Assembly: GCA_947570215.1 (NCBI GenBank) | Contig: CANOTO010000002.1 | Coordinates: 1 to 64,000, forward strand | Direction: 5' to 3' | Origin: an uncultured Clostridia bacterium | GTDB lineage: Bacteria; Bacillota; Clostridia; Christensenellales; CAG-314 | Length of the DNA stretch: 64,000 bases | Shown here: positions 4,776-64,000 of the stretch, piece by piece | Position numbering within the stretch: the first letter of the stretch is position 1 | Layout of the letters: every line of letters begins with the position of its first letter | Notes under the pieces: generated by a model | Database searches by the model: none | What the model saw: the letters and a program-made list of their open reading frames with translations, nothing else | What the model was told of the DNA's origin: nothing | Translations under genes and position numbers: made by a program

Positions 4776-5899
4776 TGAACGATAAAGAACAACGAGAAAA
4801 ACTATATAAAGAACATTTGGACGAGATTTTTGGGATAAAATCTGTCGATGACTTTACGCAGGAAGATGTGGATAGGTGTCTTGAAAGACTGATAAGATGT
4901 ATTCCTAATGATGGAAAGCTTTATAAGTATCGTTCCGTAGAAGATACTCAATTTTCATATGCATTTGATGCCCTTTCAAAAGGATATTTGTGGATGGCGT
5001 CTGCAGATACACTTAATGACGATTTGGAAGCGACGTTACAATATGATCCTGAAAAAAGCGTAAAGGAGCTACGTGATTATGTCTATTCTCATCCCGTTGA
5101 ATTTGTTAAGTTTATCTTTGAATTAAGTAACACAAATATCGGGTATGACTACAATGATTACCAAGCATACGAAATTGTGATGCAATGTATTGATAGGGAA
5201 TCCGGTGAAATTAATGTTGATATTGCCGCCGGAACTTTAGTGGAAAAGTGTCACATTGCTTTTGAAAAAGCGGTGGACTACATAAATCAAGTTAACTTAT
5301 TCGTTTCCGATATGTTAGCAAGAAATGAGCATCTTGCAAAAACATTTGCGGAGTCTCATTTAAGACTTAATGAAAATATGAGAAAAATGTCTTATATTTA
5401 TTCGATGTCAGAATTGTTTGATTTAGACAATATGTGGTCATTATATGCAAATAACAATAAAGGTTTTTGTATTGAATATGACTATCATAAAGTGAAGAAT
5501 CTTGATTTTGAAACGCAAAGACGTCTTATAAATACTGTGCGGGTTATTTATAGCGCGAAATCCGACTATAGTTTTGTACCGACTGTTAAAATAGCATTTA
5601 ATAAACACATAGATGATGACGAATCTTTACAAGCGAATCGGACGACATTATTACAGCTTATTACTAAGTCCAAAAGTTGGGAAGCGGAAAAAGAGTGGCG
5701 GATTTTTTTATGTAATTTAGATAACGATAACAAACTATTTGCCGATATCGTTTCCGCAATAATAATTGACGAAAGAGTTGTTAAAACAGAAAATGCTCAA
5801 AAACTGATTGACCTTTGCAAACAAAAAGGATGGAGCATTAAAATTAGGAAGAAAAATTCTGTTGGCACAAAACACGAGTATGTTGAGTTAAAAGATTGA
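4775..5899 (+). CDS. DUF2971 family protein inside the hsd operon
   Basis: The 374-residue protein shows the DUF2971 signature: KLYKYRS near residue 50, a NDD motif near residue 80 in the position of the family NDP motif, MWSLYANNNKGFCIEYD near residue 220, and WEAEKEWRIF near residue 303. The biochemical activity of the family is not established. Genes of this family are often found beside restriction and abortive-infection genes. Here it lies between hsdS and hsdR, with its start overlapping the hsdS stop and its end 11 bases before hsdR. The placement suggests that it modifies the restriction response or is defence cargo; that role is inference. Confidence 0.75.
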   Translation: MNDKEQREKLYKEHLDEIFGIKSVDDFTQEDVDRCLERLIRCIPNDGKLYKYRSVEDTQFSYAFDALSKGYLWMASADTLNDDLEATLQYDPEKSVKELRDYVYSHPVEFVKFIFELSNTNIGYDYNDYQAYEIVMQCIDRESGEINVDIAAGTLVEKCHIAFEKAVDYINQVNLFVSDMLARNEHLAKTFAESHLRLNENMRKMSYIYSMSELFDLDNMWSLYANNNKGFCIEYDYHKVKNLDFETQRRLINTVRVIYSAKSDYSFVPTVKIAFNKHIDDDESLQANRTTLLQLITKSKSWEAEKEWRIFLCNLDNDNKLFADIVSAIIIDERVVKTENAQKLIDLCKQKGWSIKIRKKNSVGTKHEYVELKD

Positions 5900-5910
5900 C
5901 GAGGTGTATC

Positions 5911-8900
5911 ATGTTAAATCATCAAATTTTCAATGAACGCCCTGAATGTCAGGATAGACTTGTAAACTTTCTTCAAAAGATGGGGTACACATATATCTCT
6001 CGAAGCGAAGCTGAACAAAAACGTGGTAGCTTGTCTCAGGTTATATTTACGGACGAGCTCGTTCGTTTTTTAAAAACACAGACATATCGTTATAAAGGTT
6101 ATGAATTTCAATTTTCTGCCGAATCAATTTCCCGCGCTGTCAATGCTCTAGATGCATCCTTATTGCAGGGATTATCTTTGGCAAGCAAAGAAATTTATAA
6201 CCTTCTTACACTCGGTATAAGCCTTGAGGAGACTATTGCCATAGATAAGGATGTACCTGCCCGTCAGTCATTTGATTTATCTTATATTGATTTTGAAAAT
6301 CCCGCCAATAATATTTGGCAGGTTACGGAAGAATTTAGTGTAGAGTGCTCAAACGGCCAATACGCACGTCCTGATGTCGTAATAATGGTCAACGGAATAC
6401 CTCTTGTTGTTATCGAGTGCAAGAAATCGGGTATTGATGTTAAAGAAGGTGTGTTTCAAAATGTGCGAAATATGGGGCCTGATTATATTCCGCATTTATT
6501 TAAGTATGTGCAACTTGTTATGGCGATGAATCCCAACAAGGTTTTATATGGTACTTGCGGAACTACATCTGATTATTTTGTGGAATGGCGTGAAGAAGAA
6601 ACGGAATGGCAAAAAGAAATGTGTCAGAAGTGCTCTCCTAATGGTCAGATTTTGGAACAGGATCGCATTGTTGCTTCTATGCTTGATAAAAGGAGGTTGC
6701 TTAGCTTAATTCGTGATTTTATTTTGTATGACAGCAATATAAAAAAAATAGCACGGCATCAGCAGTTTTTTGCTGTTAAAAAAACCATGGACAGAATAAA
6801 CGGCATTGACGGAAGCGATTCAACGGGCGGCGTAATATGGCACACGCAGGGTAGCGGCAAAAGCCTTACCATGGTATTTCTTGTTAAAAAAATTCAGCGC
6901 GAGAAAACGACAGAACATCCGAGATTCATTATTGTTACTGATCGCATCAATTTGGATAAACAGATTCGCGATAATTTTGCTCACACACAGATGGAGCCCG
7001 CAAGAGCAAAGACTGGAACAGGATTAAAATCACTTTTAAAAGATAAAAGCAATATTATAATAACCACGTTGATCAATAAGTTTGAAACGGTATGTAGAAA
7101 TCAGTATCTTGAACAGGATAGCGACAGATTTTATGTTTTGGTAGATGAGGCTCATCGCTCACAATATAGTGCAATGTATAATTATATGTGTGAAGTTTTG
7201 CCGAATGCAACTTTCATTGCGTTTACGGGAACACCGTTAATTGCGAAAGCAAAAAAGAACACGTACAAGAAATTCGGACAATCAATTCATAGTTATACTA
7301 TGAAGCGTTCTATAGAGGATTGTATTACAGTGCCTATAGTATATGAGGGTAGAAAGGTTAAGCAGAACGATCCTTCGGAAGCGATAGACGCATTATTTGA
7401 CAAATTAACGGTGGGCCTGCCTGAGGAAACTAAAAAGGAACTGAAGCAAAAATATAGTCGTTTTTCAAAGTTGGCCGAAGCAAGCAGTCGTATCAACCTT
7501 ATTGCTTTTGATATTTTTGATCACTTTGTAAATTATTGTAAGCCTAAAAATCTTAAAGCCATGGTGGTGTGTTCTTCGAGAGCAACGGCAGTTGAAATGT
7601 ATAACATATTATCAAGTATGCCGGGGGATATTGTAAATCCTCGCGTTGTAATAACTTTTGGGGATAAGCGAGAGGGTGATGACGATGATGGACGTCCCGA
7701 AGCATTGAAAAGGATAGCTGATTATCACGATAAAAAAGTCAAACCGCTTTTTGGGGATAATGACGAAAAGTATACAGAAACGGTATGCGACGAATTTAAA
7801 AATCCAGAAGGCGATATCAATATTCTTATCGTAAAGGATATGCTACTTACCGGGTTTGATGCGCCGGTTGCAGGAGTGCTATATGTTGACAAGCCTCTTA
7901 AAGAACACAATTTGCTGCAAGCTATTGCAAGGGTAAATCGCATATATAAAGAGAAGGACTTTGGTCTTGTCGTTGATTATTGGGGAATATTTTCAAATCT
8001 TAGATCGGCAATAGACTTGTATGATGATGCTGAATCAGAGATGAACCATTATGACGCCAGTGATATTGACAGTGCAATATTGGGGCCTATTGATGAGAAA
8101 AATAAGCTTGAAGTAGCACACGCCGAATTGATGACATTATTTGAAGGATTATCTGATTCCGCTTCTTCAGATGATTGGCAAATAAAACTTGCCGATGAAA
8201 TAAAACGTAACGAATTTTACGACAAGCTGAAAATATTTGCAAATTTATTAAATTTAGCATTATCAAATAGAGCGATTTTTGTAGAGGTGGGGATTGAACG
8301 ATTAGAAAAATATCGAAAAGATTATTTGTTCTTTAATAAACTGAGAACATGTGTAGTTGAAAGGTTTGATAACACCATTGACGCATCAAGATATGAGGCA
8401 GGCATAAAGAATCTGTTAGATACTTTTGTAAATGCTACAGAAGTAAAAATAATAGTTGATCCTGTATATATTGGTGATGAAAAGGCAATGGAAAGGCTTT
8501 TGGCGAGCAATGATCCAAGTAATGTAAAGGCTGATAAAATAAAGACTCGTATCGAATCTGAATTAAAACAGATACGGTATGACGATCCGCTTGTTTTTGA
8601 AGAATTTTCTACTAAGATAAAAAAGACTTTGGCGGAATATGACCAATCTAGAGATGGGGATAAGTATTTGCAGATTATGCTTAATCTTGCTGACGATTTT
8701 AAGAATGGTCGTTTAACAAGAGATTATCCTACATCTATTGCTTCAGATAGTGATGCAAAAGCTTTTTATGGCGCTGTTATAACAGTCCTTCGATCAAAGT
8801 CACTATTCGAGATTACTGTTGAAATTGAAGAAGAAATAGCTAATTTTTCACTGAACATAAAATCAGCAATAGCAGATAATGCCAAGAGGGATTGGAAGCA

Positions 8901-9054
8901 TAATGAAGTTGTTCATAAACAAATGCATCGAGCTCTTGATGACTGTTTGTTTGATATGTTTGAGAAGATTGGATTCACAATTGATAAGTCAAATATAGAC
9001 ATGCTTGATTTGATAATTGACGAGATTATGAATGTGGCGGTTGCAAGATATTAA
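5911..9054 (+). CDS. hsdR: type I restriction endonuclease and translocase subunit
   Basis: HsdR pumps DNA using ATP and cuts unmodified DNA far from the recognition site. The N-terminal nuclease shows RPDVVIMVNGIPLVVIECKK near residues 152-171, which holds the PD-(D/E)XK residues. The helicase motor follows with the Walker A sequence TQGSGKS near residue 312, the DEAH box near residue 411 and motif III FTGTP just after. At 1047 residues it is full length. The ATG at 5911 is chosen because GAGGTG at 5901-5906 is well placed; a TTG at 5896 is the alternative. The HsdM, HsdS and HsdR genes are all intact, so the system is probably active. Confidence 0.94.
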   Translation: MLNHQIFNERPECQDRLVNFLQKMGYTYISRSEAEQKRGSLSQVIFTDELVRFLKTQTYRYKGYEFQFSAESISRAVNALDASLLQGLSLASKEIYNLLTLGISLEETIAIDKDVPARQSFDLSYIDFENPANNIWQVTEEFSVECSNGQYARPDVVIMVNGIPLVVIECKKSGIDVKEGVFQNVRNMGPDYIPHLFKYVQLVMAMNPNKVLYGTCGTTSDYFVEWREEETEWQKEMCQKCSPNGQILEQDRIVASMLDKRRLLSLIRDFILYDSNIKKIARHQQFFAVKKTMDRINGIDGSDSTGGVIWHTQGSGKSLTMVFLVKKIQREKTTEHPRFIIVTDRINLDKQIRDNFAHTQMEPARAKTGTGLKSLLKDKSNIIITTLINKFETVCRNQYLEQDSDRFYVLVDEAHRSQYSAMYNYMCEVLPNATFIAFTGTPLIAKAKKNTYKKFGQSIHSYTMKRSIEDCITVPIVYEGRKVKQNDPSEAIDALFDKLTVGLPEETKKELKQKYSRFSKLAEASSRINLIAFDIFDHFVNYCKPKNLKAMVVCSSRATAVEMYNILSSMPGDIVNPRVVITFGDKREGDDDDGRPEALKRIADYHDKKVKPLFGDNDEKYTETVCDEFKNPEGDINILIVKDMLLTGFDAPVAGVLYVDKPLKEHNLLQAIARVNRIYKEKDFGLVVDYWGIFSNLRSAIDLYDDAESEMNHYDASDIDSAILGPIDEKNKLEVAHAELMTLFEGLSDSASSDDWQIKLADEIKRNEFYDKLKIFANLLNLALSNRAIFVEVGIERLEKYRKDYLFFNKLRTCVVERFDNTIDASRYEAGIKNLLDTFVNATEVKIIVDPVYIGDEKAMERLLASNDPSNVKADKIKTRIESELKQIRYDDPLVFEEFSTKIKKTLAEYDQSRDGDKYLQIMLNLADDFKNGRLTRDYPTSIASDSDAKAFYGAVITVLRSKSLFEITVEIEEEIANFSLNIKSAIADNAKRDWKHNEVVHKQMHRALDDCLFDMFEKIGFTIDKSNIDMLDLIIDEIMNVAVARY

Positions 9055-12753: not shown

Positions 12754-12985
12754 TTATGTAAAGAAGAAATTAAGTGCATATACAGGTAGTCCCAAGTATT
12801 TAGGCGATTCGGCTGAGGTCGCAGATGATACCATATTCTGCGATATGCAAACGGGCGAAGTCAAATCGGGCATTATACATTACAAAGACGAGTTTATAGT
12901 AGAGTGCGCACAAAGTCTTGCCTACTATCTACTTGACAATCCCGATATAGTAAAACAAATGGAGAATGATTATGGAAATAACTGA
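12731..12985 (+). CDS. 84-residue hypothetical protein before the recombinase
   Basis: The frame starts at GTG 12731 inside the preceding small ORF and ends at 12985 inside the start of the recombinase gene. Overlap on both sides indicates an operon with coupled translation. The product has a basic N-terminus (MKSQQRSDYVKKKLSAYTG) and an acidic C-terminal helix (LAYYLLDNPDIVKQMEND). No domain was recognised. It may be an accessory factor of the recombinase, since compact genes at this place often are, but nothing in the sequence proves it. Confidence 0.5.
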   Translation: MKSQQRSDYVKKKLSAYTGSPKYLGDSAEVADDTIFCDMQTGEVKSGIIHYKDEFIVECAQSLAYYLLDNPDIVKQMENDYGNN

Positions 12986-14618
12986 AAAGAAAACTGTAAT
13001 TTATGCTCGGTACAGTTGCGAGAAGCAAACCGAGCAAAGCATTGAGGGACAGCTTCGCGTTTGCCACGAATTTGCGGAGCGTAACGGATACGTAATAGTG
13101 CATGAGTATATCGACAGAGCGGTTTCGGGTAAGACGGACAAACGCGAACAATTTCAGCAAATGCTGAAAGACAGCGCGAAGCAGGAATTTAATTACGTAC
13201 TTGTATATAAGCTCGATAGATTTGCGCGAAATCGGTACGATAGCGCAATCAATAAAGCGACGCTCAAAAAGAACGGCGTAAAGGTTTTGTCTGCTTGCGA
13301 ACAGATTACCGATTCGCCCGAGGGCATTATACTTGAATCTATGATTGAGGGCATGGCGGAATACTACTCTGCCGAACTTTCGCAAAAGGTTAAGCGCGGT
13401 ATGCGTGAGAGCTGTCTGAAAGGTAATGCGGCAGGGATACAACCGATATTTGGTTATTGCATCGTGGACAAGAAATACCAGATTGTTCCGCACGAAGCCG
13501 AGATAGTACGAAAGATGTTCGACGATTATGTAAACGGCACGACGATTAAAGAAATAAAAACGTGGTTTGAAGAAAGCGGTGTTCGCACCCATAAGGGCAA
13601 TATCTTTTCGTTCGGGCGCATTTCCGATATGCTTCGCAATCAAAAGTATATCGGCAAATGCGAGTATGCTGGCGAAGTCTACGACAATATCATTATGCCT
13701 ATCGTGGATGAAATGACGTTTTATCGCGCACAGGAATTGCTTGTGGTGAATTCGCATAAGTCGGGACGAGTACGCGCCGGAGAGAAATTTATTTTGAGCG
13801 GTAAAGTAGTATGTTCACATTGCGGAGCACTTTACAACGGCGAAAGCGGCACTTGCAGAAACGGAGATATTCATTACTTTTATAAATGCCGCCGTAAAAA
13901 GGAAGGTAAAGAAAAGTGCTGCTCGCACGCCGTTCCAAAACAAGTCTTTGAGGATAGCGTTTATAAAACCGTAATGACGGCGTTAAAGGACGAGACGTTC
14001 TTGCGCCGCGTTGCCGAGCAAGCTGTGGAAATACATAACAAACAAATAATAGAAAAGCCCGAGCTTAAAATACTCAGGCGGCAGCTTGCCGAAACGGAAG
14101 AAATGCTTAATAATATTACAATGGCGATTTGCAAAGGTATTTTCAACGATTATACGCAAAACAAAATGAGCGAGCTTACGCTTCTCAAAACGCAGTTGGT
14201 TGCGAAAATCGCCGACGAAGAAGCGAATAACATTAAACCGTTGCAAGTCGAAATGCTGATGGATTTCTTCCACAAAAGCGTACTTGCAATCGAGTGTGCC
14301 GAAGACCCGACAAATCTCGATAAGCGCAAAAAGCTATTCGATGCGCTAATCAAAGAAATAATCTTCGACGGCGAAAAGTATCTTATCGTGCTTAAAACGA
14401 GTAATATGCCGGACTATCAAGCAACGGACGAGCAAAAAGAAAAGTCCCGAGCCGAATGCGATGAACTTCGCACTCGGTTCGAGACACTTCGTTTTGGTGA
14501 CTCTAAGGGGATTCGAACCCCTGTTATCGGCGTGAGAGGCCAACGTACTAACCACTATACGATAGAGCCGTATTTTTTTGTCGTTATAAGTGGTGTATTT
14601 CAGACACTTATCTTGTGA
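12972..14618 (+). CDS. large serine recombinase of the integrated element
   Basis: Large serine recombinases integrate and excise elements at short att sites. The N-terminal resolvase domain carries the catalytic serine in YARYSCEKQTEQSIEGQ (about residue 15) and the LVYKLDRFARNRYD motif. The recombinase domain is followed by a zinc ribbon near residues 278-318 (CSHCGALYNGES, CRRKKEGKEKC) and a coiled coil near 345-440. ATG 12972 fits GGAG at 12961-12964. From about residue 508 the frame is antisense to the tRNA-Glu gene (GDSKGIRTPV, then TNHYTIEPY), so the last 40 residues come from the target site and would differ in the excised form. The gene otherwise looks intact. Confidence 0.92.
   Translation: MEITEKKTVIYARYSCEKQTEQSIEGQLRVCHEFAERNGYVIVHEYIDRAVSGKTDKREQFQQMLKDSAKQEFNYVLVYKLDRFARNRYDSAINKATLKKNGVKVLSACEQITDSPEGIILESMIEGMAEYYSAELSQKVKRGMRESCLKGNAAGIQPIFGYCIVDKKYQIVPHEAEIVRKMFDDYVNGTTIKEIKTWFEESGVRTHKGNIFSFGRISDMLRNQKYIGKCEYAGEVYDNIIMPIVDEMTFYRAQELLVVNSHKSGRVRAGEKFILSGKVVCSHCGALYNGESGTCRNGDIHYFYKCRRKKEGKEKCCSHAVPKQVFEDSVYKTVMTALKDETFLRRVAEQAVEIHNKQIIEKPELKILRRQLAETEEMLNNITMAICKGIFNDYTQNKMSELTLLKTQLVAKIADEEANNIKPLQVEMLMDFFHKSVLAIECAEDPTNLDKRKKLFDALIKEIIFDGEKYLIVLKTSNMPDYQATDEQKEKSRAECDELRTRFETLRFGDSKGIRTPVIGVRGQRTNHYTIEPYFFVVISGVFQTLIL
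14495..14501. other. probable element attachment site at tRNA-Glu 3' end
   Basis: The recombinase reading frame crosses directly from element DNA into the tRNA 3' end here. TGGTGAC, the complement of the tRNA 3' terminal GTCACCA, is also present at 222-228 next to the other recombinase tail. The 7-base match could mark the crossover core, but a 7-mer can recur by chance in 14 kb. The native terminator expected just after the CCA is absent here, while tRNA-Thr at 17893 has one. Confidence 0.45.
14495..14569 (-). tRNA. tRNA-Glu (anticodon CTC)
   Basis: The minus strand folds as a full cloverleaf. The acceptor stem GGCTCTA pairs with TAGAGTC (one G-U), the anticodon arm is TTGGC-CTCTCAC-GCCGA with anticodon CTC (glutamate, codon GAG), the T arm contains GGTTCGAATCC, and CCA is encoded. 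The gene is intact even though the integrated element ends exactly at its 3' terminus. Confidence 0.93.
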
Positions 14619-52474: not shown

Positions 52475-55993
<3,519 letters not shown>

Positions 55994-56050
55994 TTATTGT
56001 AAAATTTTTGCGCGGCTTGTCCGCAAAGCCGACAAGCCCCATACAAAACA

Positions 56051-56079
56051 ATTATAAACTTTTATGAGCGTAAAGTCAA
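56051..56079 (-). promoter_or_regulatory. promoter of nifJ
   Basis: On the minus strand TTGACT (56079-56074), 17-bp spacer, TATAAT (56056-56051). The leader includes a GGCTTGTC/GACAAGCC stem around 56012-56038. Confidence 0.8.
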
Positions 56080-56380
56080 GAACATAAACGGATATTGGTA
56101 TACCTTGCCGCCGTCAATCGTCTGATAATACGCGCGGAAGCAAATCTGCGCGGTGTTGCCGTAATTCCCATAGGGAATATAATTAGACGCAAATAAAAAG
56201 GTTTAGGCATAGCGTTAAGCTGTGCCTTTTCTCTGCTTTTTTTGTGTACGAATTATGCTACTCGTAGCTTAGTGAGATATAGATATGTTTTATATTTCCC
56301 GAAAAATTCAATCGATTGCGTTCTTTCATTTTTCGTGATATAATGACAGTAAGATAAACAGTAATTTGGCGGAGAGAAAA

Positions 56381-56941
56381 ATGAACGATATATTGGTATT
56401 TTCGGAAAGAGCGGAATTCCGAAATTGGCTAACTGAAAATTGTCTTTCTACCGATGGCGTTTGGCTTTTGTTTGGTAAGCACGGCAATCCGAAAACGATT
56501 AAAGCAGACGAAGCATTGGAAGAAGCCCTTTGCTTTGGTTGGATTGACGGACAAATGCAAAGCATTGATAACAATACCTATAAAAAGTATTTTTCTATGC
56601 GCCGAGTGAACTGCAAGTGGTCGGAGAAAAACAAGACTTTGGTAAAAGTTCTCGAAGAACGGGGACTTATGACTGACTTCGGCAGAAAGAAAATCGAGGA
56701 AGCAAAACAAAACGGACAATGGTATGCCCCGAAACCTGCGGCGGTTACGGAAGAACAAATTGCCGCGCTTGCCGAAATTTTGAAAGCCTATGAGCCTGCT
56801 TATACAAATTTTTCGGCAATGTCATTATCGGTAAAGAAAACGTATGTAAAAGCATATTTAGATGCCAAAACGGACACGGGGCGCGAAAAGAGAATTGCGT
56901 GGATGGTAGAACGGCTTAATAAAAATCTAAAACCGATGTAA
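56381..56941 (+). CDS. YdeI/OmpD-associated family protein
   Basis: The 186-residue protein belongs to the YdeI (bacteriocin-protection, OmpD-associated) family: FRNWLTENCLSTDGVWLLFG, then the family signature EALCFGWIDGQ, then KKYFSMRRVNCKWSEKN, and a C-terminal helical part (EKRIAWMVERLNKNLKPM). The family has been linked to resistance to antimicrobial peptides and oxidative damage, with no known enzyme activity. ATG 56381 fits GGAGAG at 56371-56376. It is the only gene of cassette 1. Confidence 0.85.
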   Translation: MNDILVFSERAEFRNWLTENCLSTDGVWLLFGKHGNPKTIKADEALEEALCFGWIDGQMQSIDNNTYKKYFSMRRVNCKWSEKNKTLVKVLEERGLMTDFGRKKIEEAKQNGQWYAPKPAAVTEEQIAALAEILKAYEPAYTNFSAMSLSVKKTYVKAYLDAKTDTGREKRIAWMVERLNKNLKPM

Positions 56942-56979
56942 GATAAATTTCAATTTATCTTTCTAAATATTTTGCAGTA

Positions 56980-57013
56980 AAAAGCTCTCGAACATATCGT
57001 TCGAGAGCTTTTG
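56980..57013 (+). terminator. terminator of cassette 1 gene
   Basis: AAAAGCTCTCGAA (56980-56992) pairs perfectly with TTCGAGAGCTTTT (57001-57013). Confidence 0.85.
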
Positions 57014-57120
57014 TCCTTGCTTGAAAGTATAACTCTTAATAATTTAGTTTTTTAATTCCCTATGGGAAGTGCGCTTTGCCGCGGACGTTTTTTTTGTAAG
57101 CGGCTTAAGTCGGTACATAG

Positions 57121-57324
57121 TTATTTTTTTGTAATAACGGGACGCAGCGGTATCAAGTTCTGTTCGAAATACGTATCCATTTCGCATTGAAAGCGTGCAA
57201 GCGCGCTTTTTTTCGGTGCAAAAAATTCGCTTGCTTTAACAAGCATAGGCTTGCTCGGGGCAATCAATTTGGCGTAGATTGCTTTTATGTCGAATTGTTC
57301 GTTGCCGTTATATTCGCGGTTCAT
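57121..57324 (-). CDS. 67-residue protein divergent from the WYL regulator
   Basis: MNREYNGNEQFDIKAIYAKL starts a small protein with a Lys/Phe-rich centre (KASEFFAPKKSALARF) and an end in PVITKK. AGGGAGA precedes the ATG at 57324. It is divergent from the WYL-domain regulator and shares with it a region holding two perfect operators, so it is probably the regulator's main target. A promoter with an extended -10 (TGCTATAAT, 57400-57392 on the minus strand) fits. No family was recognised. Confidence 0.55.
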   Translation of the reverse strand: MNREYNGNEQFDIKAIYAKLIAPSKPMLVKASEFFAPKKSALARFQCEMDTYFEQNLIPLRPVITKK

Positions 57325-57409
57325 TCCAAGTCTCCCTTTCCTTATATTGTCAGGCTGCGGTTCTCTGCCGCAGTCCGATTTTTGTGATTACATTATAGCA
57401 CACTAAATA

Positions 57410-57491
57410 TGACAACTATTTGTCAGTTATTATAAAATTTTTTACATTTTTTCATCAAAAACTTGACAATATATTGTCAGTCTTTTATAAT
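57410..57491 (+). promoter_or_regulatory. WYL regulator promoter with two TGACAA-N4-TTGTCA operators
   Basis: TGACAACTATTTGTCA (57410-57425) and TGACAATATATTGTCA (57464-57479) are two copies of one operator type. The second overlaps the -35 box of a promoter, TTGACA (57463-57468), 17 bp, TATAAT (57486-57491). Further half sites TGACAAT follow at 57495 and TATTGTC near 57345. The first site covers the divergent promoter. Confidence 0.75.
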
Positions 57492-57602
57492 CGTGACAAT
57501 AGCGGTATATTTCGGTAAAACGAGCGGCTTCACTCCGTTCCGTATCGTTTTATGCCGCAAAAATTTTCGAAGTCGGCATCCGGTCGCAAGGAGAAACGAT
57601 AT

Positions 57603-58520
57603 ATGCAAATCCCCGTACTTGTAGGAATACTTTCCACCCTGCTGTCCGCCGAAGGCTTGGTTCGCGCGGACGACCTTGCCAAAAAATTTGAAATAAGCTC
57701 GCGCTCCGTTTACCGATATATGGATATGCTGTCCGAAGGCGGCGTACCGATAGAGTCCTGCTTGGGTCGTGGGGGCGGTTGGCGCATAGTGGAAAATTAC
57801 AAGCTCAAAGCCACCTATTTTACCGAAGAAGAATACAACCGCTTGGTGTTTTCCGTACAAAGCTCGTCGCTGCAAGACGACGTTACGCGGCAGGTCTCGC
57901 AAAAGATTCAGGGCTTAAAGCGTACCCATGCCAACGCCACCGTGCTTATGTCCGAGCAGTTTATCGTTGATTCGCAGGACGTGTCCGTCGGCGACCGCGT
58001 AAGCGTTTTGTCGGAGTGCATTTCTCAAAAGACGCTGTGCGAGATAGAGTATCACGCCAAGGACGGCAGCGACTCGGTGCGCGTAGTCGAGCCGTACTGC
58101 CTTATTCTTAAAAACGGAATGTGGTACGTTTATTGTTTCTGTCGCCTGCGCAAGGGGTTTCGGTACTTCAAGGTGTCGCGCATCGTCAATCTCAAAGTCG
58201 GCGACCGTTTTGTCGGGCGCGCGTTTCAAGCGGACAGTAGCGTTATACAGACGGACGTATTGAAGGGCAAGGAAAACTGCGAAGTCATTTTAACCGTCGA
58301 GAGCGCCGCTTTGTCCGCCTGCGAAGAATGGCTGGGCGTAAGCAACGTCGCCAAGATGGGCGAAAGCTACATTGCCAAGGCAACGCTTCCCTACGACGAA
58401 GTGCTTATCAACAATATTTTGTCGTTAGGCGAAGGCGTGCGCGTAGAAAAACCGCAAAAGCTTCGTCTTGCGGTGGTGGAACGCTGTAACAGAATTGCAG
58501 CGGCTAATCATTCGGAATAA
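57603..58520 (+). CDS. WYL-domain transcriptional regulator (HTH-11/DeoR type)
   Basis: The N-terminus is a winged helix (LVGILSTLLSAEGLVRADDL; ISSRSVYRYMDMLSEGGVPI), followed by the WYL sensor domain near residues 125-215 with CEIEYHAKDG, EPYCLILKNGMWYVYCFCRL and FKVSRIVNLKV. WYL proteins sense ligands, often nucleic acid pieces, and many control defence or stress genes. The start at 57603 fits AGGAG at 57588-57592. It should bind the two perfect palindromes in the divergent promoter region and control itself and the 67-residue gene. Confidence 0.88.
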   Translation: MQIPVLVGILSTLLSAEGLVRADDLAKKFEISSRSVYRYMDMLSEGGVPIESCLGRGGGWRIVENYKLKATYFTEEEYNRLVFSVQSSSLQDDVTRQVSQKIQGLKRTHANATVLMSEQFIVDSQDVSVGDRVSVLSECISQKTLCEIEYHAKDGSDSVRVVEPYCLILKNGMWYVYCFCRLRKGFRYFKVSRIVNLKVGDRFVGRAFQADSSVIQTDVLKGKENCEVILTVESAALSACEEWLGVSNVAKMGESYIAKATLPYDEVLINNILSLGEGVRVEKPQKLRLAVVERCNRIAAANHSE

Positions 58521-58523
58521 ACC

Positions 58524-58777
58524 GCTCGCGTATTCTCACGAAAACGGTTTCACTTTGCTCGATGTATTATAAAGCAATGTCATTTCGACCGCGTTACGCG
58601 TTAAACGTATGTCCCCTGCGGGAATTACGTAGCCAAAGCGGTCAATGGGCTATGCCCGTAAACCTCGAAGCGAGCGGATATACTATAGGACTTGCTTGTT
58701 AAAGCTGCTCTGATTATGCCGCTTCGACCAAGTTATGCAAAGCATTGCGCGCGGAGAAGTCCGCCGAAGCGGAATCG
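58524..58777. repeat. repeat block between convergent genes, overlapping the murG end
   Basis: GCTCGCG (58524-58530) starts 3 bases after the WYL stop. GTCATTTCGACC (58579-58590) and GCTTCGACC with GGAGAAGTCC (58721-58762) form two copies of the second module. The last one covers the final 21 codons of murG. Confidence 0.65.
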
Positions 58778-59811
58778 AATTTTATTTTTTTTTTCATTTT
58801 CAATATTTCTTCTATCGTTTTGTCCGTGCCGTACAAGTCGGCGTTCTGTTTTTGTTTGCGAATAATTGTTTGGCGGTTTTCATACGCCCGTTTGATCGCG
58901 TTCGACAGCGTTTTTGTCAAATTATCTTCGGATACGGTAATTCCGCAGCCGCGGCTTACAAACCATTCTGCGTTCTTTACCTGTTCTCCGCGCGAGCATT
59001 TTGTAAGCGGTACGGTAACGAACGGTACGTTTGCCAATGTCAGCTCCGCAAGACTTGTCGATCCTGCGCGGGTCAGACATACGTCACTTGCGGCAAACAA
59101 ATCTCCCACGTCGGTTGCGTATTCCGTTTGATGAACGAAGCCGCAGTCTATGCTTTTGCCTTTGCCCGTTATCACAAATATGTCGAACGTATCCGCAAGT
59201 CGTTCGTTTGCTGTTACCGCTTCGTTTAATGCGTTTGCGCCGAGACTTCCGCCCATAATCAGCAATATCGGCTTTTTACCGTCGAAGCCCATTGTTTCGA
59301 GTCCTTTTTGCCTGTCTCCATTCAATATTTCTTCTCTTACTATAACGCCTACTATTTTGGCTTTTTTGTCGCAGGGGAAGGACGCTAAAAATTCCGTCGC
59401 AAACAGTTTGGATATGCGGTTGGCAAGTCCTAACGACATGTCGCTTTCGTGTATTATAGCGGGTATTTTCAGTTTTTTAGCGGCGATTATCACCGGCAAG
59501 CCAACGTAGCCGCCCTTGGAAAATACTACGTCGGGACGAATGCGTTCGAGATGCTTTTTGGCTTGTTTCACGCTTTTACACAGCTGAAAAGGCAGCGCCA
59601 AGTTGGATAACGTCAGTTTGCGCCGCAGCTTGTTCGCCGTAATTTCGGCGTATTCTTCGATTATGCCGTTGTCCACGTAAGGGCGAACTAAGTTTTTTTC
59701 CATACCGTCCGAGCCTATATAGTACAGTTTTTCCTTTGTCAGTTTGCTTGCAAGTGCCAAATTGGGCGTTACGTGACCTGCCGTACCGCCGCCGCTGAAT
59801 ACTATTTTCAT
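58714..59811 (-). CDS. murG: MurG-type UDP-N-acetylglucosamine transferase (lipid II synthesis)
   Basis: MurG adds GlcNAc to lipid I in peptidoglycan synthesis at the inner face of the membrane. SGGGTAGHVTPNLALA opens the N-terminal GT-B domain. PDVVFSKGGYVGLPVIIAAK, PAIIHESD and the donor-site region TRAGSTSLAELTLANVPFV are conserved. The 365-residue length is normal, but the last 21 residues (from about KFDSASADFSARNALHNL to the end) are encoded by a dispersed repeat. The gene stands outside the usual mur cluster, so it may be a second copy. Confidence 0.88.
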   Translation of the reverse strand: MKIVFSGGGTAGHVTPNLALASKLTKEKLYYIGSDGMEKNLVRPYVDNGIIEEYAEITANKLRRKLTLSNLALPFQLCKSVKQAKKHLERIRPDVVFSKGGYVGLPVIIAAKKLKIPAIIHESDMSLGLANRISKLFATEFLASFPCDKKAKIVGVIVREEILNGDRQKGLETMGFDGKKPILLIMGGSLGANALNEAVTANERLADTFDIFVITGKGKSIDCGFVHQTEYATDVGDLFAASDVCLTRAGSTSLAELTLANVPFVTVPLTKCSRGEQVKNAEWFVSRGCGITVSEDNLTKTLSNAIKRAYENRQTIIRKQKQNADLYGTDKTIEEILKMKKKIKFDSASADFSARNALHNLVEAA

Positions 59812-59956
59812 ATCATTAGTGTATGTAGAAAAACGCGGATTATTTGTATTTTACGTCGATTTCTATGCAAAATGTGTTTGTGTGCTTTTTGTCGCAAAAT
59901 GCAGTAAAGAACGAAGCAAAACGTGGTTTTTTCCACAAAAAGCGGAAAAAACGGTA

Positions 59957-59985
59957 TTGACAACGAATATGTGTTAATATATAAT
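59957..59985 (+). promoter_or_regulatory. promoter of the alpha/beta hydrolase gene
   Basis: TTGACA (59957-59962), 17-bp spacer, TATAAT (59980-59985), 59 bases before the start codon at 60045. Confidence 0.8.
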
Positions 59986-60044
59986 AATAGAGAAAAGTTT
60001 CGGCTTTTGTGAAAATTAAATTTACGCAAGGAAGGCGATTAAAT

Positions 60045-60950
60045 ATGATATTATCCGATTTTACATCTCACGACGGACGTAAAATAAAATTATACGTTTG
60101 GGACGAAGTTCAAAATCCCAAAGCTGTGGTAAAGATTGCTCACGGAATGGTAGAGCACTCCGCAAGATACGACGATTTCGCGCGGTATCTCAACGGCAAG
60201 GGGTATATAGTTGTTATGAACGATCACCGCGGACACGGTCTTACGGCAGAGCGCGACAGCTTGGGCTACGAAGAAGGGGATATGTGGACGAACAACGTCC
60301 GCGACCAGCTTACGTTGCTCGATTACTGCAAGGAAAAGTATAACCTTCCGCTGTTTATGATGGGGCATAGCTACGGCAGCTTCATTACGCAAGCCGTTGC
60401 GGAAGAACACCCCGACGTTGTCGGCTTCGTGCTTGTCGGTTCCAATTATATCAAGGGAGCAAGCTATTCCCTTTGCAAAACGGTGGCTTCCAATATGTGC
60501 CGCAACAAGGGCGGACGTTACCCTGCCAAGATGATAGTAAACCTGTCCTTCAAGCAGTATGAGAAGAAGATTCCCGGCAAAAACGCTTGGCTCAACCGCG
60601 ACGAAGCGGAAGTAAAAAAGTACAACGAAGACGAATTTTGCAGCTATATATGCTCCGCTAACTTCTATCGTACGTTTATGATCGGTATTTCCAAACTTTA
60701 CAAAAAGGAGTACTACAAGCAAATAAACGTTGACAAGCCTATTTTGCTTGTGGCGGGCGACAACGACCCCGTCGGCGAATACGGCAAGGGCGTAAAAAAG
60801 CTTAACAAGTTCTATCTCGACAAGGTCGGCGTCAAGGACGTTACGATGAAACTGTACGAAGGCGGCCGCCACGAGATACTCAACGAAACCTGCAAAGCTC
60901 AGGTGTACGACGACGTTTCCGCCTGGTTGGATGCCAAATTGGAAAAGTAG
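60045..60950 (+). CDS. alpha/beta hydrolase, monoacylglycerol lipase-like
   Basis: The 301-residue protein has a Lip/MGLL-type fold: VVKIAHGMVEHSARYDDFAR, NDHRGHGLT (oxyanion side), the nucleophile in MMGHSYGSF near residue 108, the acid in LVAGDNDPVGEYG and the histidine in YEGGRHEI. The start at 60045 fits AAGGAAGG at 60028-60035; a GTG further upstream is less likely. Such enzymes hydrolyse monoacylglycerols or lysophospholipids; the exact substrate is open. It is not secreted. Confidence 0.85.
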   Translation: MILSDFTSHDGRKIKLYVWDEVQNPKAVVKIAHGMVEHSARYDDFARYLNGKGYIVVMNDHRGHGLTAERDSLGYEEGDMWTNNVRDQLTLLDYCKEKYNLPLFMMGHSYGSFITQAVAEEHPDVVGFVLVGSNYIKGASYSLCKTVASNMCRNKGGRYPAKMIVNLSFKQYEKKIPGKNAWLNRDEAEVKKYNEDEFCSYICSANFYRTFMIGISKLYKKEYYKQINVDKPILLVAGDNDPVGEYGKGVKKLNKFYLDKVGVKDVTMKLYEGGRHEILNETCKAQVYDDVSAWLDAKLEK

Positions 60951-61129
60951 ATTTTCGGATATAAAAATTATAGCGGCTATTCGTTACCGTAGTTCCCATA
61001 GGGAATTTTCCACATAAGTATAGCGTACTATACCTTGCAAGCAAGGTGAGTGCGTTTTTGCTTTACCTTTTAATTTGATTGTCGTATAATAATAGAGTGA
61101 TAAACAGTGATTTACTGGAGATAAATTCG

Positions 61130-61963
61130 ATGGATATTAAAGAGTTAAAACGGCTTGCAGAAAAAGGAGATGCTAACGCACAATATGAATTGGGCGAATA
61201 TTTTAACGGTGAAGATAATTACGACGAGGCGGTTCATTGGTATCTTCTTGCCGCACAACAAGGTCACATAAAAGCGCAGTATGCTCTTGGTGACTGTTAT
61301 GCTCTTGGTTTTGGAGTAGAAGAAGATTGGGAACAAGCCTATCATTGGTTTTATAGTGCGGCAAAGCAAGGCTATGCTGAGGCACAATTTGATGTCGCCG
61401 AATGTCTTGCCACGGGTACGGGTGTGGAAGAAAATAAAACAGATGCTGTTGGTTGGTATCTCAAATCCGCACAGGGAGGTTGTGCTTTCGCACAAGTGGC
61501 TGTCGGCATTTTATATAAAGATGGAGAAATTGTTCCACAAAATTTTAGTGAAGCTGCCAAATGGTATCAACTTGCCGCAGAACAAGGTGATTTAGAAGGA
61601 CAGTACAATCTTGGTTGTTTGTATCTAAACGGACACGGTGTAGAACAAAACTACGAGAGAGCTTTTGAATTGTTTACGCTTGCGGCGTCAGACCATAAAT
61701 ACGGTTCTATATATGCTTTGAACAATATTGGGTATTGTTATGAGAACGGCTACGGCGTTACTCAAAATGCGGAAAAGGCGTTTGAATACTATCTATTGGC
61801 GGCACAACGCGGAGATGAAGTAGCGGCATTTAATGTCGGCGAGTGTTATGAGCTTGGTAAAGGCGTTTCAAAAAATTTGTCAAAATCACTTGAATGGTAT
61901 CGAATAGCTGCCGAGCGCGGAGACGAAGATGCTCAAAAGAAAGTACAAGAATTAATGAAGTAA
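61130..61963 (+). CDS. Sel1-like (SLR) tetratricopeptide repeat protein
   Basis: The 277-residue protein consists of seven to eight Sel1-like repeats of 36 residues. Examples are AEKGDANAQYELGEYFNGED, AAQQGHIKAQYALGDCYALG and AAQRGDEVAAFNVGECYELG. SLR proteins are scaffolds for protein-protein contacts in signalling or secretion. There is no signal peptide or anchor, so it is cytoplasmic. ATG 61130 fits GGAG at 61117-61120. It is the only gene of cassette 2. Confidence 0.88.
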   Translation: MDIKELKRLAEKGDANAQYELGEYFNGEDNYDEAVHWYLLAAQQGHIKAQYALGDCYALGFGVEEDWEQAYHWFYSAAKQGYAEAQFDVAECLATGTGVEENKTDAVGWYLKSAQGGCAFAQVAVGILYKDGEIVPQNFSEAAKWYQLAAEQGDLEGQYNLGCLYLNGHGVEQNYERAFELFTLAASDHKYGSIYALNNIGYCYENGYGVTQNAEKAFEYYLLAAQRGDEVAAFNVGECYELGKGVSKNLSKSLEWYRIAAERGDEDAQKKVQELMK

Positions 61964-61994
61964 CATTGTAAATTTCAATTTATCAGGTAAATAT

Positions 61995-62029
61995 AAAAAG
62001 CGAAGAATTTTGAATTTCTTCGCTTTTTT
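61995..62029 (+). terminator. terminator of cassette 2 gene
   Basis: AAAAAGCGAAGAA (61995-62007) pairs with TTCTTCGCTTTTT (62016-62028); the T-run continues and the right cassette end follows directly. Confidence 0.85.
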
Positions 62030-62088
62030 AATTCTCTATGGGAAGTGCGTTTTCCGATAGCCGTTTTTATTTTTTGCGCATTAAGATT

Positions 62089-62295
62089 TTATCTTGCGTG
62101 TATAAATAATTCTTCAAAGTGTATTTTCATTAGTAGCGCGATTTTGATTAACGTTATCGATTTGTGTTTACTGTTATTCAAAACCTTATCGTATGTATTT
62201 TTCGATATACCGCATTGTTTGCAAAATTCATTTACGGTCGTACCGTTTATTCCTTGGTATATTTTTTTAATCTCGCCGTTTATCTTGCGTTCCAT
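62089..62295 (-). CDS. small helix-turn-helix protein
   Basis: A 68-residue protein with an XRE-like HTH (TVNEFCKQCGISKNTYDKVL) and an end LIKIALLMKIHFEELFIHAR. AGGGAG precedes the ATG at 62295, which is preferred over the longer frame. It is divergent from the XRE gene at 62407. The 111 bases between them carry an inverted repeat (62351-62369). The role is unknown. Confidence 0.65.
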   Translation of the reverse strand: MERKINGEIKKIYQGINGTTVNEFCKQCGISKNTYDKVLNNSKHKSITLIKIALLMKIHFEELFIHAR

Positions 62296-62350
62296 TTTTA
62301 CTCCCTTACAGTATTGCTCATTCGGCAATCGAACGGGATAATTGTATTAA

Positions 62351-62369
62351 ATATTCGATTATTGAATAT
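62351..62369. promoter_or_regulatory. candidate operator between divergent HTH genes
   Basis: ATATTC (62351-62356) and GAATAT (62364-62369) form an inverted repeat with a 7-base centre, midway between the two HTH genes. Confidence 0.4.
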
Positions 62370-62406
62370 GTCAAGAAAAAATTCAAAAACAGAATAATAT
62401 TTGTGT

Positions 62407-62613
62407 ATGACCTTATTACCGGAAAGAATTAAATATCTACGCCAAAGCAAAGGGCTAACGCAAAAGGAATCGGGAGAAGCGGTGGTCTATGACCAAAGCC
62501 GTGTTGCCAAGTGGGAGAGCGGCAAGTTAGAACCGAACTCCGAAGCGTTAATTGCGTTATCTGAATTTTTCTACGTTAGTATCGAATACTTGTTTGGGTT
62601 GGAAGACGATTAA
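62407..62613 (+). CDS. XRE-family transcriptional regulator
   Basis: A 68-residue single HTH protein (LLPERIKYLRQSKGLTQKES; VVYDQSRVAKWESGKLEPNS) ending in EYLFGLEDD, the common form of small XRE repressors. There is no ribosome site before ATG 62407. A TAATAT box at 62395-62400 stands 6 bases before the start codon, so the message may be leaderless. It probably acts on the divergent pair promoter. Confidence 0.8.
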   Translation: MTLLPERIKYLRQSKGLTQKESGEAVVYDQSRVAKWESGKLEPNSEALIALSEFFYVSIEYLFGLEDD

Positions 62614-62630
62614 CAATAATTGCAATATAA

Positions 62631-62670
62631 AACCGACTGTGCTTTGTTCGCAGTCGGTTTGTTTTTTTTG
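62631..62670 (+). terminator. terminator after the XRE gene
   Basis: AACCGACTG (62631-62639) pairs with CAGTCGGTT (62651-62659), followed by TGTTTTTTTT. Confidence 0.88.
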
Positions 62671-62682
62671 TGTGTAAAAATT

Positions 62683-64000
62683 TTACGAAAACTTTTTGCG
62701 TTGGTTAACTATTTTCTGAACGTACGCGTCCATATTGTTTCGGTTTTCGAAGTGAGATATAAACGCGTCAAGGTCGCTGAGGTACATCATATAATCGAAC
62801 GGGTCGATATTTGCCTTGTTGGAGTAATCGAGATATTCTACAAGGCTTAGGTAGTATTCCATCTCGAAGTTGAAGTAAATCTGCGAATCGATTGAGTTGT
62901 TGTCGAAGTTCCGAAGCAGGTTTTTGCGCTCTTTAAGCGTTGCTATAAGCCATTCTTCCGATTTTTCCTGTTTTACCACAATGCTTGCGTTGAACATATG
63001 GCGGTAAATATACGCGCGGAACAAACCGATAAGCCCGATTGAGTCGTTGTTCTCTTTGCTGGGTGTGCGATCTTCCAAGCTGACAATAAATCTCAGACAC
63101 ATTTCGCCGTAATATACCACGCGTTCCAAAAGGTACCTGCGCATTTCGTCGTTAACCTTGGGGTTTTGCGCGTACAGCGAGCAGATATACGCAAGATTTT
63201 CCGATACTATCACCCGCGCCCATTCGTCGTACGTGCCGGAGTCGTCGTCCCGTATGTCTTCTACCATATCCTTGCACACCGTAAAGTATTTGCGGAAAGC
63301 GTTATCCGACAGGTACACCAAGTCATTTTCGGCAATAAGACTTACTTGCGCTTCCAAAAACGCGATACTAAGGTTTATCGATTGGTTAAGTTCCGCCGAG
63401 AATTCCGTATTGTGCAGCCGTTTGAATTCTTTAAGCTCGCCAAGCGCCTTTTCTTCGTCTTGATACATAACGGAAGCCTGCATATAAAACATTACGTACT
63501 GCGCCAACTCGTAGTCCGAGCATTTTGAGCCGAGATCGGAGTAGTGTACTTGCAGCATTTCGTGAATCATATATCGGTTGTTTATGAGGAACATTTTGTT
63601 TGTATCCACCGACAGCTTTTGTCTGCCAAGGAAGTACTTGACGATATTCTTTGCGTAGGTATCCGCGTCCGGCGCGTCGACGGCTTCTACGAAAGCGTTG
63701 TCGAAGTCGCTCGGAAGCGTTATGGCGTCCCCTTTGCGTTTAACGCAATGTACTTTTTTCAGTCCGTAGCTGGACGATACGTAACCCAATTCGAAAAACA
63801 GATTGTTACTTATGCCGGAATCGGCTTTGTTTTGGAAAAATACTATTGCCTGATTGCAGTTCTTCATCTGGCGTATAACGGTGTCGCCCACCGACATCAT
63901 TTGCGAATCGTTTGTGTGGTTTCCGCCGACGTAGCAGACGTAATTATGCTCGCCTTCCAATATTGCCTTTACCTTGACTGCTATTTCGTTGTCGCCCGAC
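62683..64000 (-). CDS. protein with N-terminal TIR-like domain and helical C-terminal region (N-terminus outside window)
   Basis: The minus-strand frame is open to the window edge. Its visible start reads SGDNEIAVKVKAILEGEHNY, then GDTVIRQMKNCNQAIVFFQN, then ISNNLFFELGYVSSSYGLKK, a layout like TIR or TIR-like nucleotide-binding domains (strand, helix, FFELGY in the place of the catalytic helix glutamate). The C-terminal 300 residues are helical and TPR-like (YVMFYMQASVMYQDEEKALG) and may act as a sensor. TIR domains of bacteria often cut NAD in anti-phage systems; that role is inference. The true start lies beyond base 64000. Confidence 0.5.
   Translation of the reverse strand, partial: SGDNEIAVKVKAILEGEHNYVCYVGGNHTNDSQMMSVGDTVIRQMKNCNQAIVFFQNKADSGISNNLFFELGYVSSSYGLKKVHCVKRKGDAITLPSDFDNAFVEAVDAPDADTYAKNIVKYFLGRQKLSVDTNKMFLINNRYMIHEMLQVHYSDLGSKCSDYELAQYVMFYMQASVMYQDEEKALGELKEFKRLHNTEFSAELNQSINLSIAFLEAQVSLIAENDLVYLSDNAFRKYFTVCKDMVEDIRDDDSGTYDEWARVIVSENLAYICSLYAQNPKVNDEMRRYLLERVVYYGEMCLRFIVSLEDRTPSKENNDSIGLIGLFRAYIYRHMFNASIVVKQEKSEEWLIATLKERKNLLRNFDNNSIDSQIYFNFEMEYYLSLVEYLDYSNKANIDPFDYMMYLSDLDAFISHFENRNNMDAYVQKIVNQRKKFS

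Follow-up and report, generated by a model that had tools for sequence, protein, structure and literature searches.

Integrons are the best-known system for capturing promoterless genes and expressing them at once. A pair of gene-bearing units with a comparable organisation is described here, in a 64,000-nucleotide stretch of DNA (the window; positions 1 to 64,000 of contig CANOTO010000002.1, assembly GCA_947570215.1) from an uncultured Clostridia bacterium of the Christensenellales, CAG-314. These units are very probably slots of an integron-like gene-cassette system of gut Clostridia, in which cassettes are exchanged site-specifically. With integrons and clusters of attC sites lacking an integrase (CALINs) it shares an attI-like site placed after a promoter, single-gene cassettes that have no promoter and end in an inverted-repeat site, cassette arrays, a cargo rich in GNATs and other small accessory enzymes, and a single crossover point within a short core. 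In contrast to integrons, the sites are about 20 bp long with an AT-rich core, AATTTA, whereas known attC sites span 57-142 nt and carry AAC/GTT R boxes (PMC2727003). The slots are many and dispersed, mostly with one cassette each, and some of them lie on carriers. The hosts, moreover, belong to a phylum nearly devoid of integrons: from Firmicutes, a large survey recorded one complete integron and a few CALINs (PMC9024848).

The dif (pdif) modules of Acinetobacter, which are moved by XerC/XerD, are likewise small gene modules with short sites of the tyrosine-recombinase type (PMC6449649, PMC13141974). In the present system, however, the sites are not the presumed host dif, the gene is placed behind a fixed promoter and the modules are chromosomal. 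Group IIC introns target terminator hairpins, as the carriers do, but the carriers have no recognised reverse transcriptase or intron RNA (an Rfam search gave no match) and lie inside the hairpin loop rather than after it. IS200/IS605 and REP-type (repetitive extragenic palindromic) hairpin-ended elements resemble the carriers in their short hairpin ends and lack of visible target duplication, although no Y1 transposase was seen in the carriers, no genome search for one having been made. No paper describing such a system was found in the open-access literature, a search that did not extend to subscription papers or preprints, and this gene-swapping system, widespread in gut Clostridia, is apparently undescribed.

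Cassette boundaries and exchange

A slot consists of a promoter, an attI-like leader immediately after it, a promoterless cassette and a terminator, the cassette comprising an RCGGAG ribosome site, one gene and an attC-like 3' site. Among 101 leaders the consensus is TATAAT, about 9 nt, then ACGATAAACAG(T/G)AATTTA(G/A)CGGAG; the attI-like site, with consensus TACGATAAACAGTAATTTARCG, comes directly after the slot promoter. Sixty-six 3' sites give the consensus (G/T)ATAAATTTCAATTTA-D-C-K, the attC-like site of about 20 bp being written CGATAAATTTCAATTTADCG or GATAAATTTCAATTTADCG. Leader and 3' site have a common layout, TAAA-nnnn-AATTTA. Each of the two sites, the 3' site CGATAAATTTCAATTTATCG and the unoccupied site as inferred, TACGATAAACAGTAATTTAGCGTA, is an inverted repeat whose arms measure about 9 bp; folding of the 20-mer site is weak on either strand (-4.5 kcal/mol). 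A second leader type, kept in several genomes, has GTACG and ATAAACAG separated by an additional hairpin of 22 bp, CTACGAAGCAATCGCTTGCGATT (L025:4418-4440, L026, L028, L029, L035, L036, L070, L080 and L206).

The relation between the two sites is seen most directly in arrays. On contig C7 of the window's own genome, two genes stand behind one leader with the intergenic sequence AAATTTC-AATTTA-GCGGAG (L031:1452), which is the left part of a 3' site fused to the cassette start that otherwise follows the leader (GATAAACAGT-AATTTA-GCGGAG). It follows that the two sites are built alike and that crossover falls within AATTTA. The array joint TTTC-AATTTA-GCGGAG (TTTCAATTTA-RCGGAG) matches that predicted for two-gene arrays and is found, exactly or nearly so, in relatives of the same genus (L069, L070, L074, L078) and elsewhere (L131, L156, L161, L227). 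One and the same cassette takes second place in the L161 array and first place at L234 and L236.

Clustering of the genes behind leaders or joints revealed 13 distinct cassettes in at least two unrelated contexts, giving 34 pairs. At the 5' boundary of these pairs, mean identity rises from about 0.4 upstream of position -10 to about 0.9 inside the cassette; at the 3' boundary (20 pairs, seven cassettes) it is about 1.0 as far as AATTTA and drops to about 0.3 immediately past it. BLAST, which located cassette ends independently of the site patterns, gave three telling comparisons. L170 and L234 are the same slot in orthologous position with different cassettes, their 98.5% identity over 673 bp upstream stopping at the leader. 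The match between L236 and L234 is restricted to the cassette (499 bp, 99.6%), while a two-gene cassette shared by L221 and L234 (1124 bp, 97.8%) ends at the two sites. An empty slot, with promoter, site and terminator but no gene, was predicted and found at L331; it is the only clearly empty one of eight predicted, most of which hold a gene with a variant start, L327 being cut by a contig end. Frame, boundaries, swaps, arrays and, as described below, terminator targeting are in this way established by comparison of sequences.

Recombination between leader and 3' site, with crossover inside AATTTA, would insert, remove or stack cassettes, and would bring each incoming gene under the slot promoter. 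We infer that a single recombinase acts on both sites, that cassettes pass through circular intermediates and that the window copies were formerly active. A cassette circle, if it is the intermediate, would contain the junction TTTC-AATTTARCGGAG. The central bases, CAGT in the leader and TTTC in the 3' site, remain with the left partner. A one-strand exchange at the right edge, in the fashion of integrons, would yield this pattern, as might other routes.

The cargo comprises 85 non-redundant proteins with a median length of 167 aa and a mean GC content of 0.37, and in 30 of 67 cases the 3' site supplies the stop codon, through its TAA. The GNAT domain PF00583 was detected in 17 of the 84 proteins scanned, alongside glyoxalase, methyltransferase, OmdA and PNPOx domains. 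Integron cassettes have the same spectrum, with GNAT, glyoxalase and methyltransferase types. Defence libraries gave few, scattered matches to the cargo.

Slots, carriers and their distribution

The genome to which the window belongs comprises 1.53 Mb in 17 contigs, and its copies were examined in stretches around matches. Besides the two in the window, the leader GATAAACAGT-AATTTA is present there in at least 11 copies, and over 100 leaders occur in other gut Clostridia, each before a different promoterless gene ending at TAAATTTC-AATTTA. Within the family, leaders are confined to the window's genus (11 of 41 genomes); across the order, exact leaders are present in 39 of 396 genomes from five families. 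A scan of one genome per species found at least 117 stretches with leaders, nearly all in metagenome-assembled genomes of gut Clostridia, the isolates among them being Pumilibacter intestinalis, P. muris and Anaerocaecibacter muris. A few matches in Fibrobacter, delta-proteobacteria, Bacillus and others, apparently coding or chance matches, were left out of the leader set. Viral contigs yielded one true leader, L068, which adjoins a large serine recombinase (LSR), further matches there looking like chance. Searches of plasmid and phage collections with the carrier frame, and of the phage collection with the L068 slot, gave no match.

Around some slots there is a second layer, in the form of carriers with inverted TTCCCATAGGGAA ends that constitute a separate unit inserted in terminators. 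Six complete carriers lie in the window's own genome (C2:56165, C2:60993, C4:7227, C5:73674, C5:16364 and C6:60329), and partial ones are located at contig ends. The cargo of the four outside the window is a pyridoxamine-phosphate-oxidase-like protein on C4, a GNAT on one C5 carrier, an alpha/beta-hydrolase with a second gene on the other, and a protein without identification on C6. At least six more leaders in this genome lack a visible pair of flanking carrier ends (C7:817, C7:109557 and a second in the same stretch, C9:23053, C9:52918 and C17:4251), several of them standing behind terminators or tRNA genes.

Each of 14 complete carriers is flanked by the halves of one hairpin, after which a T-run mostly follows. 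A carrier's own flanks form duplexes of -21.3 kcal/mol on average, against -12.5 for mismatched pairs (permutation p ~1e-5); the carriers therefore lie within intrinsic terminators, in the loop, and show no visible target duplication. In the window, for instance, carrier 2 interrupts the terminator that belongs to the hydrolase gene (60045-60950). Slots stand singly at scattered places of the chromosome, and some are borne by TTCCCATAGGGAA-ended carriers that enter terminator loops, so that the slot would land in a transcriptionally neutral place.

The two window units had received a preliminary description as cassettes whose fixed promoter-gene-terminator frame around differing cargo suggests gene exchange. 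On reading of 55000-64000, every item of that frame was found in its place in both: a hairpin close to the left end, a promoter with a 17-bp spacer, GATAAACAGT at 18 nt or 21 nt ahead of the ATG with GGAG in between, an identical 15-mer 3' of the gene (56945 and 61970) and a terminator beside the right end (Table 1). The exchange itself is supported by the comparison across genomes. Drawn from two copies only, the description lacked the distinction between carrier and cassette layers, as well as the shared core AATTTA; it is at the inner pair, GATAAACAGT-AATTTA and TAAATTTC-AATTTA, and not at the outer cassette ends, that exchange takes place.

Nor are the 15-mer and the upstream motif frequent sequences unrelated to cassettes. 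The 15-mer occurs four times in the genome, each time behind a cassette gene, with no occurrence of a reversed-pattern control, and the leader motif with GGAG has 18 genomic matches at up to three mismatches against five in the control, the best ones all being cassettes. The end palindromes (left, 56165 and 60993; right, 57056 and 62032) account for four of seven matches at two mismatches or fewer, where 0.9 would be expected. In window and genome, palindromes, 15-mer and leader all exceed chance by far. Because both leader cores are mutated (AATTTG and GATTTA), the window slots may be fixed relics that no longer exchange, and the intact frame around them suggests that they still express their genes.

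Table 1. Features of the two window slots and their carriers (window positions)
Feature	Position	Strand	Basis
Left half of interrupted terminator hairpin, carrier 1	56145..56155		Ranks first among 14 partners for the carrier's own right flank (duplex, -24.4 kcal/mol)
Carrier 1 left end CCGTAATTCCCATAGGGAATATAAT, palindrome 56165-56177	56158..56183		Recurs in own genome and in carriers of other genomes
Left-end hairpin, terminator-like, AGGCATAGCGTTAAGCTGTGCCTTTT	56197..56230	+	Identical or one mismatch in six carriers of own genome
Platform promoter TTGCGT-17-TATAAT	56316..56344	+	Sequence (56316-56344); TATAAT before leader is consensus of 101 leaders
attI-like leader TAAGATAAACAGTAATTTGGCGGA, degenerate core AATTTG	56350..56373	+	Leader searches, leader consensus
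Cargo gene, 186 aa, OmdA/YdeI family (PF13376)	56381..56941	+	Domain match, family also found in two further cassette proteins (A1)
attC-like 3' site GATAAATTTCAATTTATC	56942..56959	+	15-mer search, carrier comparison, site consensus
Perfect terminator AAAAGCTCTCGAACATATCGTTCGAGAGCTTTT	56980..57012	+	Same or near-identical in own-genome carriers of like type
Carrier 1 right end, palindrome 57056-57068 and GTGCGCTTT	57055..57077		Genome copies
Right half of interrupted terminator hairpin, carrier 1	57079..57087		Hairpin-pairing test
Left terminator-hairpin half behind hydrolase gene, carrier 2	60972..60983		Sequence, hairpin-pairing test
Carrier 2 left end TTACCGTAGTTCCCATAGGGAATTTT	60984..61009		Window and genome palindrome searches
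Left-end hairpin CCTTGCAAGCAAGG, second frame type	61033..61046	+	Similar upstream sequence in L079, L152, L167, L184, L198, L231
Platform promoter TTTACC-17-TATAAT	61062..61090	+	Sequence
attI-like leader GATAAACAGTGATTTACTGGAGA, degenerate core GATTTA	61099..61121	+	Leader search
Cargo gene, 277 aa, seven Sel1 repeats (PF08238)	61130..61963	+	Domain match
attC-like 3' site TAAATTTCAATTTATC	61969..61984	+	15-mer search, carrier comparison
Terminator AAAAAGCGAAGAA..TTCTTCGCTTTTTT	61995..62029	+	Sequence
Carrier 2 right end, palindrome 62032-62044 and GTGCGTTTT	62031..62053		Window and genome palindrome searches
Right half of interrupted terminator hairpin, carrier 2	62055..62063		Hairpin-pairing test

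Two further elements of the window may be recorded. A repeat-like intergenic element at 58580-58680, GTCATTTCGACC...CGGTCAATGGGC, contains a CCCCTGCGGGAATTACG motif that resembles a carrier end. An LSR gene of 550 aa (12966-14618, + strand), its product 40% identical to the recombinase of L191, lies a few kb downstream of an apparent type I restriction subunit (5896-9054), probably within an integrated element.

Candidate recombinases and competing explanations

Several observations weigh against an integron-like exchange system. No recombinase for cassette exchange was identified among the candidates examined: TIGR02249 (IntI) is above its cut-off in none of the 41 family genomes, the best local candidate scoring 100 bits against 265. 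A family of Xer-like tyrosine recombinases of about 310 aa shows a statistical association with leaders, in 12 of 29 genomes (p 2e-6 by Fisher's test, not corrected for phylogeny), but sits at its own conserved place rather than beside slots and is absent from the leader-bearing genomes G009, G010 and G015; as a candidate for the enzyme it was rejected. The serine recombinase family that adjoins a few slots is generally common, being present in 156 of 396 genomes, many of them without leaders. Neither excised circles nor empty and occupied versions of the same slot were seen. The four central bases of leader and 3' site are unlike, a mismatch that would be poorly tolerated in two-strand exchange of the ordinary tyrosine or serine type, and conservation of the core is partly by construction because leaders and sites were gathered by pattern search.

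It might be supposed that leader and 15-mer are mere regulatory motifs conserved in 5' and 3' untranslated regions, as transcription would be expected to start where the leader begins, and the stop codon often falls within the 3' site. This leaves unexplained the array joints and the identical genes that end at the motifs in unrelated contexts; it is contradicted by them and can be given almost no credence. The inverted ends, many copies and conserved frames of the carriers recall a transposon family of the miniature inverted-repeat type, whose inner cargo would be replaced via homologous recombination between the frames. However, the same cassette is found behind promoters with no other homology and no carrier ends, crossovers fall within the 6-bp core and arrays have precise joints. 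The cassette-limited identity of the 13 cassettes and the L170/L234 swap, with its ends placed by BLAST, contradict such replacement, which is very improbable.

A true but divergent integron or CALIN, with an IntI-family integrase folding single-stranded attC and chromosomal cassettes lacking a nearby integrase, would follow the same logic of attI after promoter, promoterless cassettes, arrays and integron-type cargo. Integrase-less CALINs have indeed been recorded, including a few from Firmicutes (PMC9024848). Against this stand the IntI result, a site that has neither GTT/AAC nor room for extrahelical bases, and the single, dispersed slots, so this origin is considered unlikely. Similarly unlikely is the hijacking of the host chromosome-dimer recombinase, as by pdif modules. 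A XerS-like tyrosine recombinase is encoded in nearly all genomes of the genus and is the sole one common to leader-bearing genomes with few recombinases, and in the sites two arms flank about 6 bp, much as in dif. Upstream of the XerS-like genes (L098-L115) a conserved inverted repeat, TATTCGCAAA...TTTGCGAATA, is probably the dif site of the clade; these arms, whose identity as dif is presumed, differ from TACGATAAA/TTTAGCGTA of the present sites, and the XerS-like enzyme, whose gene also occurs in leaderless genomes, was rejected for its differing arms. Elsewhere, the C-terminal remnant of a Xer-like tyrosine recombinase lies directly behind a cassette (L035:3111-3392, - strand), with full-length chromosomal relatives in 11 other genomes of the genus; it belongs to the leader-associated family that has its own conserved place away from slots.

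An LSR as the integrase of the system is doubtful, if slightly less so. In L211 and L171 the gene of a related LSR lies upstream of the leader in divergent orientation, at 388 and 381 bp respectively, and in L191 and L235 it lies near the leader; remnants in L224 and L157 may be added to these four loci, an arrangement that recalls intI beside attI. The leader is, moreover, roughly palindromic about a dinucleotide. Yet the central dinucleotides do not match (GT in the leader, TC in the 3' site), no leader is found near 30 other members of the family, and the LSR may belong merely to an integrated element adjoining the slot; as the family is widespread without leaders, it is a lead only. At C4:159382 (L030), the left end of a carrier is followed by an LSR, the copy running off the contig end. 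In L191 (3400-4284) and L235 (1004-1888), a rolling-circle Rep protein (PF23343) is encoded beside LSR and slot, and these loci are possibly integrated small replicons carrying a slot.

Relation to integrons and significance

In every anatomical respect that can be tested the system works like an integron: an attI-like site stands behind an outward promoter (101 leaders directly after TATAAT), and promoterless, exactly bounded, exchangeable cassettes occur in arrays. It is not filed as an integron because two defining features, the integrase and an attC with R''/R' boxes, were tested for and not found. Nor does the site resemble the presumed host dif, as it would in pdif modules. The carriers, for their part, have the inverted ends and preferred target of a transposon, all 14 lying in terminator hairpins. 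On balance, the reading favoured here, with less assurance than cassette exchange itself, is an independent cassette-capture system not descended from IntI, with its own recombinase, 20-bp sites and dispersed slots delivered into terminator hairpins, that is active across several families of gut Clostridia.

If this is correct, there would be a new recombinase to find, and cassette exchange would be workable without a central array; the cultured hosts Pumilibacter and Anaerocaecibacter allow direct testing. A second cassette system would give these abundant gut Clostridia a route by which to share small accessory genes, among them those for acetyltransferases, glyoxalases and nucleotidyltransferases.

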